Translations under genes and position numbers: made by a program
Virus record (IMG/VR): IMGVR_UViG_3300026116_000002
Coordinates: 1 to 64,000 of that record
DNA: 64,000 bases
Direction: 5' to 3' (one strand)
Origin: a virus
Notes under the pieces: model-generated
What the model was told of the DNA's origin: nothing
Databases searched by the model: none
The model's input: the letters and a program-made list of their open reading frames with translations, nothing else
Shown: positions 637 through 25,757 of the stretch, piece by piece
Numbering within the stretch: the stretch's first letter is position 1
How the letters are laid out: each line of letters begins with the position of its first letter

Positions 637-882
637 GTGTTCCTCTCCGAGATTGACACCGGACGCAGCGCACTACCACAGCGCCCGGTGCTTTTCTGTC
701 CACCTGTCCATATCCTCGCTATGCGGTCACAATGATTGCCAGCCGCGTGGCTTTCGTGTACACTTCAGCGCTTCTGTCAAAGCTTGACGGGATAGTCCTC
801 ACCTCCCATGGGCTGTGATGGTCAACGCCTGTAGCATAGTCTCCTCCGATCTTCCGTGGAAGTGTATTTTGAGCGTAACCAA
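637..882. other. Gene-poor stretch with hairpin and possible tiny leftward ORF
   Basis: No convincing gene. A hairpin with arms CACCGG/CCGGTG lies near 656-690, followed by TTTT on the + strand. On the - strand one frame is open from about 916 down to a TAG at 719-721 and reads like protein (ends EVYTKATRLAIIVTA) but has no good start; GTG at 800-802 is the only candidate. In another frame a strong GGAGGAG site precedes a 12-codon ORF (MLQALTITAHGR). Either could be a leader peptide; I would not call them genes. Confidence 0.3.
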
Positions 883-955
883 TGGACCGTGCTGGAGTCG
901 AACCAACATCTCCCCGTTATAGTGTAGGGGGCTTTACCAATTAAGCTACCGGTCC
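883..955 (-). tRNA. tRNA-like gene with irregular anticodon arm
   Basis: On the - strand a cloverleaf can be drawn: acceptor GGACCG with CGGTCC, D stem GCTT/AAGC with GG in the loop, T arm GTTGG-TTCGACT-CCAGC, discriminator A. CCA is not encoded. The anticodon arm is wrong: CCCC and GGGG pair, but the next pairs are mismatched and there is no U at position 33 in the canonical register. That register would put CTA at 34-36 (amber), while a 9-11 nt loop is also possible. It may be degenerate. Amino-acid identity cannot be assigned. Confidence 0.6.
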
Positions 956-1033
956 AAGTCTGACATGGGGCTGATCTCCACCCTAGCCCCGCCCTCCTCT
1001 CTTAGTTCGCTGTACTGTGTTTGATGAATAGCC

Positions 1034-19423: not shown

Positions 19424-19771
19424 ATGGCATTTATAGACCTATCAGGGCGAACGTTTGGGCAATTCAAAGTGGTCAAGCGCGTCATGAAGCCGGAAGGCAT
19501 CAAGAGCCGTTCGGCGCGGTGGCTGTGCCGCTGCAACGCATGCGGCAAGTCCAAGTCGATCTCGGCTGATTGCCTGACGCGCGGGCACTTTGAATGCTCG
19601 TGTGCTCGTACGAAAAGAGGGCGATCAAGAGACCCGCTGCGGCATCCTAGCGTCTCGTCGCAGCTTTATCACCAGCGCATCGCAAAGCTCGGATGGAGCG
19701 AGCAGGACGCGCTCACGTTGCCTTGTGGGCAGAGGCGCGGGCGGAAACCGAAAGGAGTTAACCATGAGTGA
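19424..19771 (+). CDS. HNH-homing-endonuclease relative lacking the HNH domain
   Basis: 115 residues. The N-terminal ~60 residues, DLSGRTFGQFKVVKR, WLCRCNACGKSKSISADCL and HFECSC, match the zinc-binding N-terminal domain of the HNH protein at 39141-39971. The C-terminal piece LYHQRIAKLGWSEQDALTLP resembles that protein's C-terminal IFKLGWTVEEAVNTPP module. The catalytic middle is missing. It may be a degenerate homing endonuclease or a DNA-binding protein made from one. Confidence 0.65.
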   Translation: MAFIDLSGRTFGQFKVVKRVMKPEGIKSRSARWLCRCNACGKSKSISADCLTRGHFECSCARTKRGRSRDPLRHPSVSSQLYHQRIAKLGWSEQDALTLPCGQRRGRKPKGVNHE

Positions 19772-20320: not shown

Positions 20321-20572
20321 ATGAGAAACGCCAAGTTGACACACTGTGTTCGCTGCGGCAAGCCAGTGCAGAATGATAATACTGCGCATATATGCCTCGG
20401 CAATGGCAACTGGATTGACGTGGAGCGTATCAAGCGCGAGAACGGAGTACTTAATGAGAAAACTGAGCAAGACGATACTGCTGGCGGTCGTGCTGATGGC
20501 CGCAGGGTGCGAGCCGCAGGAGCCGACACCGGCTGCGCCAGCGTTAGCGCAGGCGACCGCGCAGTATCCTGA
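20321..20572 (+). CDS. Hypothetical zinc-knuckle protein overlapping the next gene
   Basis: 83 residues. The first ~50 (MRNAKLTHCVRCGKPVQNDN, TAHICLGNGNWIDVERIKRE) look real, with CxxC and a further H/C. The last ~40 residues overlap the lipoprotein gene in another frame and look like shadow sequence, so either the overlap is real or the original C terminus was overwritten. Confidence 0.45.
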   Translation: MRNAKLTHCVRCGKPVQNDNTAHICLGNGNWIDVERIKRENGVLNEKTEQDDTAGGRADGRRVRAAGADTGCASVSAGDRAVS

Positions 20573-20984
20573 CGAGCCGAACTCCAAGCTGACGCCGGGG
20601 GATGTCAGGACGACTGACCTGAACGAGATACTGAACGTTAAGACGAGCACAGTCAGGAATGTGCCGGAGAGCGAGAAGGCGGCGGTGTGGGCCTCTTACG
20701 CGAAGGCGTATCCGGGGGTGTTCGGTGATCGATCGCGCTGGAAAGACGTAGAGTTCGATCATGTAATCTCCCTTACGCTTGGTGGGAGTAATAGCCCAAA
20801 AAACCTGTGGCCCGAGCATTACTCTCAGCCGTGGGGCGCTCATCAAAAGGACGCCTTAGAAGATCACCTGAGAGCGCTGTTGGCCCATGGGGTGATTTCG
20901 GTACCAGAGGCCCAACACGCGATTGCTACTGACTGGATCGCGGCCTACAAGAAGTACATGTCGGTGTCGGCTACTAAGCAATAA
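20454..20984 (+). CDS. Lipoprotein with HNH nuclease-like domain
   Basis: 176 residues from ATG 20454, after CGGAGTACTTA. MRKLSKTILLAVVLMAAGC is a lipoprotein signal: charged start, hydrophobic core, lipobox MAAGC. A proline/alanine linker (EPQEPTPAAPALAQA) follows, then KLTPGDVRTTDLNEIL and FDHVISLTLGGSNSPKNLWP, the 'DHxIxLxLGGSNxPxNLWP' pattern of secreted HNH-type nucleases. It would be anchored outside the cytoplasm, where it could degrade incoming DNA (superinfection) or host DNA after lysis; both are inference. Confidence 0.7.
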   Translation: MRKLSKTILLAVVLMAAGCEPQEPTPAAPALAQATAQYPDEPNSKLTPGDVRTTDLNEILNVKTSTVRNVPESEKAAVWASYAKAYPGVFGDRSRWKDVEFDHVISLTLGGSNSPKNLWPEHYSQPWGAHQKDALEDHLRALLAHGVISVPEAQHAIATDWIAAYKKYMSVSATKQ

Positions 20985-21001
20985 CTGGGTACAGTATCAG
21001 T

Positions 21002-21181
21002 ATGATAACCATTCTCATCGAACTCTTGATAGCCGCGCTCGTGATTGCGTTGTTCGTAATCGGTCTAAATGCGATACCGGGGTTGCCTGCATGGGTCAAG
21101 CCGGTGTTCTGCATCATCGCCGCGATCGTTGTACTGCTTTACCTGCTCGGCGGCGGGACGCACATACCAGCCATACGGTAA
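21002..21181 (+). CDS. 59-residue membrane protein
   Basis: MITILIELLIAALVIALFVI then a short polar turn (NAIPGLPAWVKP) and VFCIIAAIVVLLYLLGGG: two transmembrane helices in a hairpin. Ends IPAIR. The size and topology would suit a holin-like or small membrane effector; there is no strong ribosome site, so expression may be low. Lies between the lipoprotein nuclease and the large terminase promoter. Confidence 0.6.
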   Translation: MITILIELLIAALVIALFVIGLNAIPGLPAWVKPVFCIIAAIVVLLYLLGGGTHIPAIR

Positions 21182-21189
21182 GATTTCTC

Positions 21190-21218
21190 TTGCCAAGCGA
21201 AATGATCTGTGCTATTAT
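21190..21218 (+). promoter_or_regulatory. Promoter ahead of the large terminase
   Basis: TTGCCA (21190-21195), 17-bp spacer, TATTAT (21213-21218); close to sigma70 consensus. A GCCGACGCCCG/CGGGCGTCGGC hairpin (~21262-21291) lies in the leader. Confidence 0.65.
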
Positions 21219-21322
21219 AGAGTTGTTCGGTTGATAGTTACTCTAACGGTGATCTCCTTGCGGGCGTCGGCTGTCATGGGCCGACGCCCGTGCTCACGTC
21301 AGGTGTGTGGTAGACTGTCAGT

Positions 21323-24106
21323 ATGGTGTACGTACCGAGAAAAACCGCAGCGCCCCCTCCGATAGTGCTCGATGACGAACTCATAAGTCAGATCAAGACG
21401 ATTGCGACTGGCTACATCCAGACCGAAGCAACCCCCGAGGCGGCGTACGCCAAACTCCTCAAAACGTTCCACATGCTGCCTGAGAAGGTGATTATCGAGG
21501 CGCTGACGCCGAAGGTACTCCCTCCGATTCCCGCGAGGCCAATACTCCATGAAGGCCAGATCGATATCAAGTCTCATGCCAAACGCTTCAACGTTATCAA
21601 CTGCGGCAGGCGCTTCGGTAAAGATATCCTTTGTATCGACCTCGCGATTGACATATTGGAGAAGGGCGGCAAGTGCGGCTGGTATCAGCCAACGTACAAG
21701 TCTCTCATGGAGGTATGGCGTGCCTGTAAGCGCATTCTCGCCCCGATCATCCCAAAGAATGGCATCAATGTCCTCGATAAGCGCATCGAGGTAACCACTG
21801 GGGGCTTGATAGAGTTTTGGTCTCTTGACGGTGACCCGGAAGCCAGCCGAGGCCGAGACTACGACCGAGTAATCATCAACGAGGCGGCTAAGGCGCGTCA
21901 GCTTCAGACGGCATGGGACTTGGCGATCAGGCCAACACTCATGGACCGCCGTGGTGACGCGTGGTTCCCGTCGACCCCGAGAGGCCGTGATTACTACTTC
22001 GATCTATTCCAGCGCGGCCAGGTTGGCAGTCTTGATTATGACCCGAACTGGGTGTCGTGGCAGAAACCGACGCATGACAACCCTCACATCCCCAAGGAAG
22101 AATTGGTCGACGCCGAGAAATCTATGCCGGTCACCGTCTACCGTCAGGAAATCTTGGCTGAGTTTCTGGACGTTGCGGGGCGGTTCTTCGACGAGTGGGA
22201 ACCTGCGCAGTGGGTCACGTTCATCGACGCAAGCGGCAAGATAAGTCAGCGCGAAGAGGCTTGGCATGTCGTGGAGCCATTCCCGATCCCGGACCACTGG
22301 CAGGTGTGGGCATCGGTCGACCCAGGCACAAGCAAGCACGCTAGAACTCACGCGGTGTTGTTCTTTGCCTCTGATCCAGAGGGCGGGGTTGTAATATTTG
22401 ACGAAATCTATGAAAAGGGGAAGCAGTCAGCAGAGCAAGCAGAGTTATTGCTACTGAAACTTGAGACGTATAAAAGGGCTTGCCCTGTTGACCCTGCTCG
22501 CCGTAATGGACTATGGCGGCTTAATACAGGGCCAATCCCGTGCGATTACGCCAACTTCTTTCCCCCGCCTATCAGTCATACAAGTAATGCGGTGTCGTTG
22601 GCAAGTGCGGAGCGAATCGGTAAATGGCCCGTTGAATATTATCATGAGCGTGGTATTCGAGCCGTAAGAGCCGTAAAAGATCGCATTGCTGGTTGGCGAG
22701 AAATGAAACAATGGCTTCATGACACTCTCCCTATTAAGCCAGATTCTGCCCGACTTTCTAAGGTTGACGGAGAAGACAGTCGCCCTAAGCTTCGCGTCTT
22801 CAGGGGAAGGTGCGCAAATTTAATTCGCACGATACCCCTGATGATACGTGACGAGCGAAAACCCGAGGATATTGAAGAGGACACTCTTGGGGTTGGTGAT
22901 AACGCCGGTCACCTGGAGCAGCATCTCGTTGACTGCTGCTTTATTGCCGGGACATTAATATCAACTAGCTTGGGAGACCGCCCGATCGAGGATATTAAAT
23001 ACGGTGATATGGTGTGGACACGTAAAGGTTTGAGACGTGTAATCGCTTGCGGCCCTACCACACCGCGCGTCGTAGGTAAATTGATGATCGAAAGCGCGGA
23101 AATAGTAGGTACGCTGGACCACCCTGTATGGGTTGACGGGCAGGGGTTTACTGCCTTGGGTGCGATACGGTATAATGACAAGGTCGTTACCGTTAACCCC
23201 AAGGAGTTAGGCAAATGCCAGAGGTACAAGTCTTCGAAGGTGTCACATACCGCCGCTACCCGGAGTCAAAGCAAGAGTGCCATCGCAGGTATTTCTTCAG
23301 TAATAAGGACAGTTTGCATCGGGCTATATGGCGATCGGCTAATGGGGAAATCCCTAAAGGATATCATGTCCACCATAAAGACGAAGACTACTCGAATAAC
23401 ACGCTGGATAACCTTGAATGCCTGTCGCCCGACGAACACCGAAAGCGACATCCGTACAAGGGCAGTGGTAACATTATTTGGTGCAATTTCTGCGGTAAAG
23501 AGTTCAGCGCCAATACTCGGAATGACCGAGATCGATTTTGCTCTAACAGGTGCAAGTCAGCTTGGCGCAGGGCTAGTGGGGCTGACAATGAGCAACGCAT
23601 ATGCTCATGCGGGAAAGCCTTTGTTGTCAACCGCTACGAGGACACTGTTCACTGCTCTCGGCAGTGCGCTAGGCCGGGTGGCTACGAACGTCCTAAAATC
23701 GCTACGACTTGCAGGCAATGCTGGAAGGTTTTTGTTGCACGCAGTCAGAAGGCCATTTACTGCTCTACGGCCTGTCGTAAGCGATGGGATAGAAATCATA
23801 GGGGTAAGGACAGTCTACAACCTAACGGTTGAGGGTTGCCCCGAATACTTTGCAAATGGGGTCCTGGTCCATAATTGCAGGTATGGCCTCATGTCTCGGC
23901 CCGGAGTATCACCGGATGAGCCGGAAGCCGAGATGACGCCGCAGGAAGTGTACGTAAGCACGAACCAGGCGAGGGATGACGCGGCCCTCGACTATCGCAA
24001 CGCCCGCATGGGCCTCAAGCGCGATGGCTTCCACGAAGACGGCTCTGTGAAGTGGGTTGCATCAAAGCGTATCAAGCCCAAGTCAAGGCGACCGATGGGC
24101 GTCTAA
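21323..24106 (+). CDS. terL: Terminase large subunit, interrupted by an intein
   Basis: 927 residues as encoded; about 614 after removal of the intein (residues 539-851). NCGRRFGKD (~93-101) is the Walker A variant of large terminases and RVIINEAAK (~182-190) the Walker B with catalytic glutamate. The nuclease half begins near ASVDPGTSKH (~328). After splicing, ...HLVDC joins CRYGLMSRP, the DxxRYGLMSRP region near the end of the nuclease domain. The enzyme pumps and cuts DNA into the procapsid through the portal. Sequence flanking the intein (about 22380-22930) uses more A/T-ending codons than the ends of the gene, as if converted with the intein. No strong ribosome site is seen. Confidence 0.85.
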   Translation: MVYVPRKTAAPPPIVLDDELISQIKTIATGYIQTEATPEAAYAKLLKTFHMLPEKVIIEALTPKVLPPIPARPILHEGQIDIKSHAKRFNVINCGRRFGKDILCIDLAIDILEKGGKCGWYQPTYKSLMEVWRACKRILAPIIPKNGINVLDKRIEVTTGGLIEFWSLDGDPEASRGRDYDRVIINEAAKARQLQTAWDLAIRPTLMDRRGDAWFPSTPRGRDYYFDLFQRGQVGSLDYDPNWVSWQKPTHDNPHIPKEELVDAEKSMPVTVYRQEILAEFLDVAGRFFDEWEPAQWVTFIDASGKISQREEAWHVVEPFPIPDHWQVWASVDPGTSKHARTHAVLFFASDPEGGVVIFDEIYEKGKQSAEQAELLLLKLETYKRACPVDPARRNGLWRLNTGPIPCDYANFFPPPISHTSNAVSLASAERIGKWPVEYYHERGIRAVRAVKDRIAGWREMKQWLHDTLPIKPDSARLSKVDGEDSRPKLRVFRGRCANLIRTIPLMIRDERKPEDIEEDTLGVGDNAGHLEQHLVDCCFIAGTLISTSLGDRPIEDIKYGDMVWTRKGLRRVIACGPTTPRVVGKLMIESAEIVGTLDHPVWVDGQGFTALGAIRYNDKVVTVNPKELGKCQRYKSSKVSHTAATRSQSKSAIAGISSVIRTVCIGLYGDRLMGKSLKDIMSTIKTKTTRITRWITLNACRPTNTESDIRTRAVVTLFGAISAVKSSAPILGMTEIDFALTGASQLGAGLVGLTMSNAYAHAGKPLLSTATRTLFTALGSALGRVATNVLKSLRLAGNAGRFLLHAVRRPFTALRPVVSDGIEIIGVRTVYNLTVEGCPEYFANGVLVHNCRYGLMSRPGVSPDEPEAEMTPQEVYVSTNQARDDAALDYRNARMGLKRDGFHEDGSVKWVASKRIKPKSRRPMGV
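23171..23206 (+). promoter_or_regulatory. Internal -10 box and Shine-Dalgarno of the nested HNH gene
   Basis: Inside the intein coding sequence a perfect TATAAT (23171-23176) is followed by AAGGAG (23201-23206), eight bases before the HNH ATG at 23215. No good -35 is visible at 17 bp. Confidence 0.6.
23215..23832 (+). CDS. HNH homing endonuclease nested out of frame in the intein
   Basis: 205 residues, +2 frame relative to the terminase. Residues ~47-75, GYHVHHKDEDYSNNTLDNLE then CLSPDEHRKRH, are an HNH nuclease of the type found in phage homing endonucleases (HH...N...N...H). Three cysteine clusters follow: CNFCGKEF...FCSNRC, CSCGKAF...HCSRQC, CRQCWKVF...YCSTAC, likely zinc fingers for DNA binding. 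It has its own AAGGAG ribosome site. It begins directly after the intein N-terminal splicing domain and ends inside block F, so the two proteins share ~618 bases in two frames, both open. It presumably cuts inteinless terminase genes and spreads the intein. Confidence 0.85.
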   Translation: MPEVQVFEGVTYRRYPESKQECHRRYFFSNKDSLHRAIWRSANGEIPKGYHVHHKDEDYSNNTLDNLECLSPDEHRKRHPYKGSGNIIWCNFCGKEFSANTRNDRDRFCSNRCKSAWRRASGADNEQRICSCGKAFVVNRYEDTVHCSRQCARPGGYERPKIATTCRQCWKVFVARSQKAIYCSTACRKRWDRNHRGKDSLQPNG

Positions 24107-24117
24107 TTGCTGAGTTA

Positions 24118-24146
24118 TTGCAAAACAAAGTGACTAGTGGTATATT
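24118..24146 (+). promoter_or_regulatory. Promoter downstream of the large terminase
   Basis: TTGCAA (24118-24123), 17-bp spacer, TATATT (24141-24146), then AAGGAAAC ahead of the ATG at 24170. Confidence 0.6.
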
Positions 24147-24169
24147 AAGCACAAGGAAACGGGTTTTAT

Positions 24170-25288
24170 ATGAACATGCGAGGACGACGCGGCAGGGGTA
24201 TGAAGGCTGAGATTTCACCTGCCACTAAAATCGGTGTTGTAATCGAGAAGGACAAGTCTTGGACGACTGAGACCCCTGAGTTGCCCGAGGGGCAGTTTCT
24301 CACGACTGAAGTGGCTGACGCGATTGACGAACTGGAAGGTATAGAGATCGTTGAGGTCGAGCCTGAACCCGACGTTGCAACTGTGTACCGGTGGGAGATT
24401 CCCGGCGCGGACGGCTACGCGCTCAGGATCGAGTTTGAAGCTCAGAACGCGGACGAAGCGCGTGAGTTCGCTAAGGTCGTGTCAGTTGGCGATGAAGGCA
24501 ATAGCCGGTCGCTCACGTCGCTTGAGCGCAACTGGATCACCACTACCGAGCCGCAAGTCGTCCGCGCCACTGAGGCAATCACGCTTGATCTTGACAGCGC
24601 CCTGCTCGTGAACGACAGGCTCTGGCGCGAGAACGAGACCTATCGGCAGGCAGTAGCGTTATTCGAGCAGCACGGCATCGACATCAACGACCCAATGGCA
24701 TGGGCCGAGTCACAGCAAACAGCCGCGCAGCACAAGATCGACCGCGCCGATCGTGTACGCGCTGGCAAAATGCGCGAGCTTGTGCAGGCGTTGCAGAACG
24801 TCGACCGAGCGCTGCATGACGCGATTGAACTGGACGAAGAGTTCGCCCCGCCGAAGCCCGCAGTTCCGCAGGAGCCTGACTACTCAAAGCTCGTCATTGT
24901 CACGGACGGATCAGTGGAGGACATGCCGCACCTCTACCCAAGACTGGCAAACGCCAAGTTCACAAAGGTGTCTCCAGCCGACCCTTTGACCGATGAAGAG
25001 CGCCATGGCTACAGTATCATCTTCGAGAATGGCGACGGGCTGATCGAGGACTACCGTATCCGTCGTGCTGGACCCGGCGAACAGGAGCCGCTTCGGGCCA
25101 TCAGCCGACGCATTCAGGCGCTTGTTGGCTTGACCGCTGAGAAGGCTGTCGAGGCTGCGCCCCCTGTCAAGACCGGGCCTACCGGCATCCCTGGCTCGCT
25201 CGTCATTCCAAAGGACAATGGAGATATGGACTTTGTATCGACGATCAGTGATGGAGTGCAGCCGAGCGGCTGGAAGGTGCAGTCGTAA
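24170..25288 (+). CDS. Unidentified protein between terminase and portal
   Basis: 372 residues, basic N terminus (MNMRGRRGRGMKAEISPATK) then mostly acidic. A beta-rich region (VYRWEIPGADGYALRIEFEA, ~70-110) is followed by helices (~150-230) and a Pro-rich linker. The position between terL and portal suggests a packaging or head-assembly accessory protein, but no family is recognised. Its own promoter and AAGGAAAC leader precede it. Confidence 0.55.
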   Translation: MNMRGRRGRGMKAEISPATKIGVVIEKDKSWTTETPELPEGQFLTTEVADAIDELEGIEIVEVEPEPDVATVYRWEIPGADGYALRIEFEAQNADEAREFAKVVSVGDEGNSRSLTSLERNWITTTEPQVVRATEAITLDLDSALLVNDRLWRENETYRQAVALFEQHGIDINDPMAWAESQQTAAQHKIDRADRVRAGKMRELVQALQNVDRALHDAIELDEEFAPPKPAVPQEPDYSKLVIVTDGSVEDMPHLYPRLANAKFTKVSPADPLTDEERHGYSIIFENGDGLIEDYRIRRAGPGEQEPLRAISRRIQALVGLTAEKAVEAAPPVKTGPTGIPGSLVIPKDNGDMDFVSTISDGVQPSGWKVQS

Positions 25289-25291
25289 TCA

Positions 25292-25474
25292 GTGCTTATT
25301 GCCGCGATCATACTGCTTACTGTCTGTGCGATCTCCTGCACTGTATGCGCCGTGATACTCAGCCTGCTTGCCCTGCGTCTTCAGGGTGTGAACCTGCCGA
25401 GGGTGCGCTTTGAGATAGCGCAGCTTTGGAAGCGCCGGAATAGGCCAAGCCAGAAGAGGCCGCGAGGAGTTTGA
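25292..25474 (+). CDS. Small single-pass membrane protein, GTG start
   Basis: 60 residues from GTG 25292. MLIAAIILLTVCAISCTVCA and VILSLLALRLQGV form a long hydrophobic helix, then a basic tail (EIAQLWKRRNRPSQKRPRG). No strong ribosome site except AAGGTG ~14 bases upstream. Function unknown. Confidence 0.5.
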   Translation: MLIAAIILLTVCAISCTVCAVILSLLALRLQGVNLPRVRFEIAQLWKRRNRPSQKRPRGV

Positions 25475-25475
25475 T

Positions 25476-25757
25476 ATGCCATTCAATCAAGCTAAAGGGA
25501 AGATGGTAGCCAATACCACGGCGAGTAAGCAGGCTCGGTCGAAGACTGCGGGGCCAAACTCCTCGTTTCCGATCGGGGATGCAAAACATGCCAGGTTGGC
25601 CGTGGGCGCAGCGCAGCGATCTGCCAACGCCGGGAATATCTCACAGTCGACGGCCGACAGTATCAAGGCAAAGGCTCGGGCAGCGCTCAAGTGCAGCGGT
25701 TGCAAGAAACCCGGCTTCGGTAACTACTGTCAGTCATGCGGAAAACCGATGAAATGA
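25476..25757 (+). CDS. Conserved phage protein with zinc-ribbon tail
   Basis: 93 residues after GAGGAGTTTGAT. SSFPIGDAKHARLAVGAAQR then SANAGNISQSTADSIKAKAR is a block I recognise from several phage proteins usually located near head genes. It ends with a zinc ribbon, CSGCKKPGFGNYCQSCGKPM. Function unknown. Confidence 0.7.
   Translation: MPFNQAKGKMVANTTASKQARSKTAGPNSSFPIGDAKHARLAVGAAQRSANAGNISQSTADSIKAKARAALKCSGCKKPGFGNYCQSCGKPMK

Follow-up and report, generated by a model that had tools for sequence, protein, structure and literature searches.

In the textbook picture, splicing and homing endonuclease activities of an intein reside in domains of one polypeptide. In canonical inteins this endonuclease is nested in frame and is of the LAGLIDADG type or, more rarely, of the HNH type. 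The intein considered here appears to follow another plan. It interrupts terL, the gene for the terminase large subunit, in a 64,000-nucleotide stretch of viral DNA (positions 1 to 64,000 of IMG/VR virus record IMGVR_UViG_3300026116_000002), hereafter called the window. A putative HNH endonuclease gene lies inside it in a different reading frame. Very probably, the intein is mobile, and its own DNA encodes the homing endonuclease in a frame other than that of the intein. It resembles canonical inteins in having a Hint splicing domain, a homing nuclease between the Hint halves, empty sites, and mini-inteins. It differs in that the nuclease would be a separate protein read in another frame, and not a domain of the excised intein.

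Other systems share parts of this layout. Fractured genes, which Dassa et al. reportedly described in 2009, are said to be split inteins whose halves flank a free-standing endonuclease gene. As in the window, a Hint intein lies within a phage gene and surrounds an endonuclease that is translated on its own (predicted, for the window). However, the intein is there broken into two polypeptides, whereas the window has one continuous open reading frame (ORF). Free-standing phage HNH homing endonucleases and I-HmuI of the SPO1 intron are of the same HNH_3 family, but they are encoded by ordinary genes that lie between others or within or close to introns, and none of this DNA is shared with a splicing domain. 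A TerL intein has been reported in the paper on Acinetobacter phage TaPaz, which does not mention a nuclease in another frame.

The closest published case is that of the ShiLan domain and the Pacc40 gp60 insertion, an out-of-frame HNH in a phage DNA methylase insert, the translation of which was left as an open question by its authors (Arsenault, Gosselin and Gogarten, 2025; PMC11855218). There too, an insertion that the host frame reads through without a stop encodes a zinc-finger HNH in its third frame, the distribution is disjunct, and a free-standing relative adjoins the same gene in other phages (PMC11855218). The window element has the same kind of alternative-frame HNH. In contrast, the ShiLan insertion is not an intein and is argued never to be removed from the methylase (PMC11855218), while the host frame in the window is a true intein by its sequence. 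The ShiLan HNH also has a GTG start and no Shine-Dalgarno site, and the described cases are mycobacteriophages (PMC11855218). It matches the profile of the window's HNH family weakly and in permuted order (E 8e-6). The same paper cites its authors' 2025 preprint on the "non-canonical architecture" of actinobacteriophage inteins for overlapping frames. That preprint may already report inteins that have an endonuclease out of frame. Its title is restricted to actinobacteriophages, and the HNH-nest family described here spans several phyla and an archaeon. No out-of-frame endonuclease within an intein was found in the full-text literature searched, which did not cover this preprint, and priority is thus uncertain.

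The terL intein and the HNH gene within it

The features of the locus are as follows, with the ratio of non-synonymous to synonymous change given as pN/pS and the AlphaFold2 confidence score (predicted local distance difference test) as pLDDT.

21323-24106 (+): terL ORF, terminase large subunit, 927 codons, uninterrupted
21323-22936 (+): terL N-extein, 538 codons; phrog_2 terminase large subunit, E 2e-33; 75% identical to an intein-free TerL in locus L120
22937-23875 (+): intein, 313 codons, Cys1 to Asn313, class 1-type splicing residues; Hint_2 and TIGR01443 matches
22937-23212 (+): N-terminal Hint splicing block, not dual-coding; pLDDT about 96 over intein residues 1-80, dropping past residue 90
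23171-23176 (+): TATAAT, 38 nucleotides (nt) before the HNH ATG; Tyr-Asn codons of the Hint motif RYND in the intein frame
23201-23206 (+): AAGGAG, putative Shine-Dalgarno site of the HNH ORF, 8 nt before the ATG; anti-Shine-Dalgarno energy -7.8 kcal/mol
23215-23832 (+): putative HNH endonuclease gene, dual-coding region, 205 codons, ATG to TGA, +2 frame of the intein; HNH_3, E 4e-15; mean pLDDT 88
23215-23764 (+): overlap as read in the intein frame, residues 93-276 of the intein; linker predicted to be disordered and without constraint; pLDDT 38-65, intein-frame pN/pS about 1 or more in relatives
23314-23442 (+): HNH catalytic motif in the HNH frame, LHRAIW...YHVHHKDEDYSNNTLDNLE...EHRKRH; PF13392 match, invariant His and Asn columns in alignments A1 and A3
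23482-23775 (+): three Cys-pair zinc-finger/treble-clef modules in the HNH frame, conserved Cys
23765-23875 (+): C-terminal Hint splicing block, intein residues 277-313; Intein_splicing and TIGR01443 matches; pLDDT 92-98 over residues 281-313
23876-24106 (+): terL C-extein, CRYGLMSRPG..., completes the TerL nuclease motif; collinear with the intein-free L120 sequence ..LEQHPCDTARYGLMTRPG..

The first-pass annotation of this DNA placed an intein with a complete set of splicing residues at 22937-23875, and the profile matches agree. Cys1 is at 22937 and Asn313 at 23875, followed by Cys+1, with a C-terminal end of VHN/C (the slash marking the junction). The block B TxxH motif is found in GTLDHP (Thr59-x-x-His62). 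The matches to Pfam Hint_2 (E 4e-7) and to TIGR01443, the intein C-terminal splicing region, both exceed the curated cut-offs. Cys1, Gly13, Thr28, His62, and Asn313 are unchanged across 30 aligned inteins. The insert therefore has the residue-1 nucleophile, block B motif, C-terminal Asn, and Cys+1 of class 1 inteins, and its predicted spliced product would be collinear with the intein-free homologue of L120. These features identify it as a class 1-type intein. An Rfam scan of 21000-25500 gave no match, so no group I intron or other known RNA was detected in terL.

Between the splicing domains no in-frame endonuclease is found, as the first-pass annotation had also noticed. The HNH instead sits in the +2 frame, so the canonical arrangement does not apply, and the single 927-codon ORF does not fit a fractured gene with the halves on separate polypeptides. 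The HNH ORF had been called correctly in its coordinates and length. It is wholly within the intein, and the first 68 nt of the C-terminal Hint block (from 23765) double as code for the HNH C-terminal tail. It matches the phrog_15471 HNH endonuclease (E 3e-30). A catalytic motif and a DNA-binding module are both present: besides the invariant His and Asn, C90, C93, C109, and C113 are invariant in the HNH alignment, and C130, C132, C147, and C151 are nearly so. This is the sole HNH_3 gene in the 74,887-base virus record.

Two of the forward frames are open over the 618 bases, again as first described, and 22 stops are found in the third. At the local base composition, the probability that a frame of 205 codons is open by chance is about 3e-5. 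Stop-codon recoding does not appear to undermine this argument. TAG terminates 10 of the 47 window ORFs of at least 200 codons, so general recoding is not evident despite a tRNA with a CUA anticodon, and neither overlapping frame has an internal TAG. The tRNA was identified by ARAGORN at 882-956 (-) and labelled tRNA-Pyl. An in-frame endonuclease broken by a frameshift or sequencing error is ruled out, as the same frame recurs in 173 distinct loci.

Structures were modelled with AlphaFold2 from input alignments of the window's own proteins and those of IMG/VR or genome contigs. The HNH protein is modelled confidently. In the intein model, the Hint halves (residues 1-80 and 281-313) have pLDDT of 92-98, most of residues 98-275, in the overlap, fall to 38-65, and the top Foldseek matches are solved inteins. 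The Hint fold is thus indicated by profiles, model, and structural matches alike. The models also predict that, of the two frames of the overlap, one specifies a real protein and the other a disordered linker.

Two ORFs upstream of terL may be mentioned here. The ORF at 19424-19771 (+), 115 codons, matches positions 192-258 of phrog_374, a phage HNH family (E 2e-12), and has no HNH domain of its own in Pfam. It is possibly a remnant of another homing nuclease. The ORF at 20346-20984 (+), 212 codons, has an HNH-like motif, FDHVISLTLGGSNSPKNLWPEH, and matches no Pfam or PHROG family.

Recurrence, selection, and the empty site

The same frame offset was found by tblastn in Acinetobacter phage Highwayman, Rhodobacteraceae phage MD07, and Tetrasphaera phage TJE1. 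An alignment of the HNH proteins concerned was used to collect 80 viral and 10 genome loci. Profile-based classification in this first survey covered 101 distinct loci. There were 61 complete +2 nests, 6 partial nests, 2 nests in +1, 13 split-like loci, 16 free-standing genes, 2 in-frame cases, and 1 that was cut off. The conventional in-frame layout is seen in L021 and L023. Over all surveys, an HNH is nested in an intein in the same frame as in the window in at least 173 distinct loci. Of 173 nested loci, 172 have an intein with Cys at its start and 171 one with Asn at its end; the intein frame is free of stops in all of them, and the median length is 320 codons. The hosts are phages of several bacterial phyla and a haloarchaeal plasmid. 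The shared layout suggests that these selfish inserts have in it an established means of bringing a mobility enzyme of their own along.

The interrupted gene is nearly always terL. This includes the terL of Halobacterium plasmid L125 (NZ_CP070376), an archaeon, and that of Streptomyces plasmid L126 (NZ_CP041606, 2398-4764). In L103 (726-3464) the nest is in a phage portal protein gene. In L038 (222-3164) one terL has two inteins, inserted at separate sites, and each contains a +2 HNH that differs from that of the other. L010 and L084, the nests in the +1 frame, lack stops in +1, have them in +2, and are paired on the HNH tree.

Two further samples were taken. One, by the intein C-terminal motif, had an intact +2 HNH in 80 of 80 loci, but it was ranked with the full-length query and is biased. 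The other, the least biased, was searched with the N-terminal Hint block, which does not overlap the HNH, and took the best 80 of more than 500 matches to one Hint. Among its 70 distinct inteins, 61 have an intact +2 HNH and 9 are mini-inteins of 121-137 residues without an HNH. No interrupted or in-frame HNH of the window's HNH family was present in any of these 70, and none showed an HNH frame full of stops beside an intact intein. Outside this sample, L098 (1785-2525) has one stop in the HNH frame with the intein open, and it may be a decaying nest.

Selection in the two frames was compared in 13 pairs of related nests. The pN/pS of the HNH frame is 0.15-0.46, that of the intein frame over the same DNA is 0.8-6.7, and that of the Hint-N block is 0.15-0.75. 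HNH third codon positions, which are the second positions of the intein frame, change fastest. These values indicate that the DNA is held to the HNH protein. By these comparisons the HNH frame is under purifying selection, and the overlapping intein frame is not, apart from the avoidance of stops.

Stop avoidance is seen directly in codon choice. The 67 nested genes have no intein-frame stops, whereas the corresponding frame has 3.1 per 100 codons in free homologues and 3.65 in split ones. Codons for Leu, Ile, and Val that precede A never end in A or G in nested genes (0 of 276), versus 53% in free genes. The +1 frame of nested genes shows no such avoidance (8.5 stops vs 8.9 expected), and the two +1 nests have the mirror-image pattern. 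Biased codon choice thus keeps stops out of the intein frame.

An empty site is provided by L120. Its TerL has no intein and is 75% identical to that of the window over residues 67-537. Where the window has ..GHLEQHLVDC/intein/CRYGLMSRPG.., L120 runs on uninterrupted as ..SHLEQHPCDTARYGLMTRPG.., and the intein-free terL site of the L120 type is ..LEQHPCDTARYGLM.. in sequence. No HNH of the window type was found in its 24-kb record, which may be partial. The free HNH gene that adjoins terS in Acinetobacter phage BP10 shares 51% identity, over 209 residues, with the HNH nested in the Highwayman intein. The TerL of BP10 is different and intein-free. On the HNH tree, nested, free, and split genes are intermixed with 16 changes, many branches being weakly supported, and this mixing neither shows nor excludes a single origin of the nest. 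The similarities of HNH, Hint, and extein are correlated, but loosely (rho 0.16-0.31), as expected of a mobile element with some vertical descent.

The dual-coding interpretation of the first-pass annotation is therefore upheld by the recurrence in 173 loci, the selection in two frames, the stop avoidance, and the empty site. Both intact frames and the conserved layout belong to the same sequence-based case. From these it can be inferred that the HNH is translated by internal initiation, that it has a target, and that it homes. It would cut inteinless terL, of which the sequences show the empty site, and drive its own transmission.

Translation of the nested gene and alternative explanations

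A single messenger RNA would yield two products. Ribosomes that start at terL would translate the shared stretch in the intein frame, giving TerL-intein-TerL. The intein would excise itself and leave an intact terminase, with the stretch between the Hint halves serving as a disordered linker whose particular sequence does not matter. Initiation at the internal AAGGAG and ATG (23201 and 23215) would yield a free HNH zinc-finger endonuclease. This enzyme would cut intein-free terL alleles at the intein site, within the TerL nuclease motif codons (...D/xRYG...). Repair from the intein-bearing copy would then install the intein and the nuclease jointly.

The AAGGAG is present eight bases before the ATG, as first noted. 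Near the HNH, the best start has an anti-Shine-Dalgarno energy of -6 kcal/mol or lower in 43% of nested loci, against 9% of out-of-frame N-extein starts, or 14% when the best of as many is taken. This enrichment favours internal initiation of the HNH. The TATAAT upstream had been given as a promoter-like motif 39 bases before the ATG. The motif itself is there, at 38 nt, but it is rejected as independent evidence of a promoter. It occurs here in 7 loci, in 5 of which it has the same phase and the same RYND motif codons, and a promoter scan gave 2 sites versus 1.7 in shuffles, which is not above chance. In L051 and L061, TATAAT lies about 50 nt before the HNH homology start, in another phase than RYND-type codons and at the same position as elsewhere.

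It could also be proposed that the HNH is made as a Hint-N-HNH fusion by -1 ribosomal frameshifting from the intein frame. The HNH is nearly always in the same -1 (+2) frame, and a -1 slippery heptamer lies near the HNH head in 6 of 61 loci. The window is not among these, however, and slippery heptamers are hardly raised (1.1 vs 0.67 per kilobase in exteins), so that a programmed frameshift is not general among the loci. The median distance from the opening of the HNH frame to the homology start is only 51 nt, Shine-Dalgarno sites are enriched at HNH starts, and two loci are nested in +1. The frame bias does not require frameshifting, because free-standing homologues have three times fewer stops in the +2 frame than in the +1 frame (3.1 vs 9.0 per 100 codons). 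Frameshifting is therefore considered quite unlikely.

The nested HNH may instead be a terminase packaging cofactor and not a homing enzyme, in the way that HK97 gp74 assists cos cleavage. HNH proteins adjoining the terminase act in packaging in HK97 (PMC10448857), and the nests are nearly always hosted by terL. Even so, the 75% identical TerL of L120 manages without HNH or intein, although its 24-kb record may be partial, and the nest of L103 is in a portal gene. Each intein of the doubly interrupted L038 TerL has its own HNH. The HNH moves along with the intein and is wholly absent from mini-inteins. A packaging role is accordingly judged very unlikely.

That the HNH ORF is a functionless relic or a chance open frame is scarcely credible, since against the one stop in L098 stand the stop avoidance, the purifying selection in 13 pairs, the fast HNH third positions, and the intact HNH in 61 of 61 HNH-bearing inteins of the Hint-only sample, which together rule it out.

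Some points weigh against an out-of-frame homing endonuclease made by internal initiation. In about a third of the nests, the start has no good Shine-Dalgarno site. The mode of initiation may thus vary from host to host, with leaderless or coupled starts possible where that site is poor. The TATAAT is accounted for by coding. The nearest solved structure to the HNH model is I-HmuI (1u3e), and the Foldseek match is weak (E 0.05). The window intein has no close intein-bearing relative here, and the selection test therefore comes from relatives. The Hint-only sample, as the best matches to one Hint, may not represent all phage inteins.

Split relatives and the meaning for viral inteins

In the 13 split-like relatives of the same HNH family, both intein halves are in one frame in 10. 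If nuclease genes had been inserted independently, one in three (about 4 of 13) would be expected to share a frame by chance. The binomial probability, worked by hand, is about 0.002 when loci are treated as independent, which some are not. This suggests that fractured split inteins descend from dual-frame nests through stops and a new start in the unconstrained frame.

A broader proposal can be made, for which the case seems evenly poised. Dual-frame coding would be a standing and possibly predominant architecture of a large class of bacterial and archaeal viral TerL inteins, with endonuclease and splicing domain unlinked as proteins and inseparable as DNA, and phage fractured split inteins would arise from such nests via stops in the unconstrained intein frame.

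The layout explains a class of annotation errors, as automatic annotation retains one frame and drops the other. The nuclease is unannotated in phages Highwayman, TJE1, and MD07. In the records of the two plasmids, the Streptomyces nest (L126) is annotated as an HNH gene and a truncated terminase, and the Halobacterium nest (L125) as a Hint protein with the HNH omitted. Such nests are a source of many new candidate inteins and paired nucleases. They also put same-strand overlapping genes to a clean natural test, as one of the two frames has almost no sequence constraint.

On present comparisons, the window element is a dual-coding intein and one of a widespread group, and its anatomy and selection make it well supported that it works like a homing intein. 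In this arrangement the splicing and cutting functions share DNA and not protein. The nuclease would be freed from the need for a splicing-compatible fold and could have its own ribosome start, and its loss would necessarily touch the DNA that spaces the splicing halves. The layout would also offer a simple route for a free-standing nuclease to invade an intein, and perhaps a route to split inteins.

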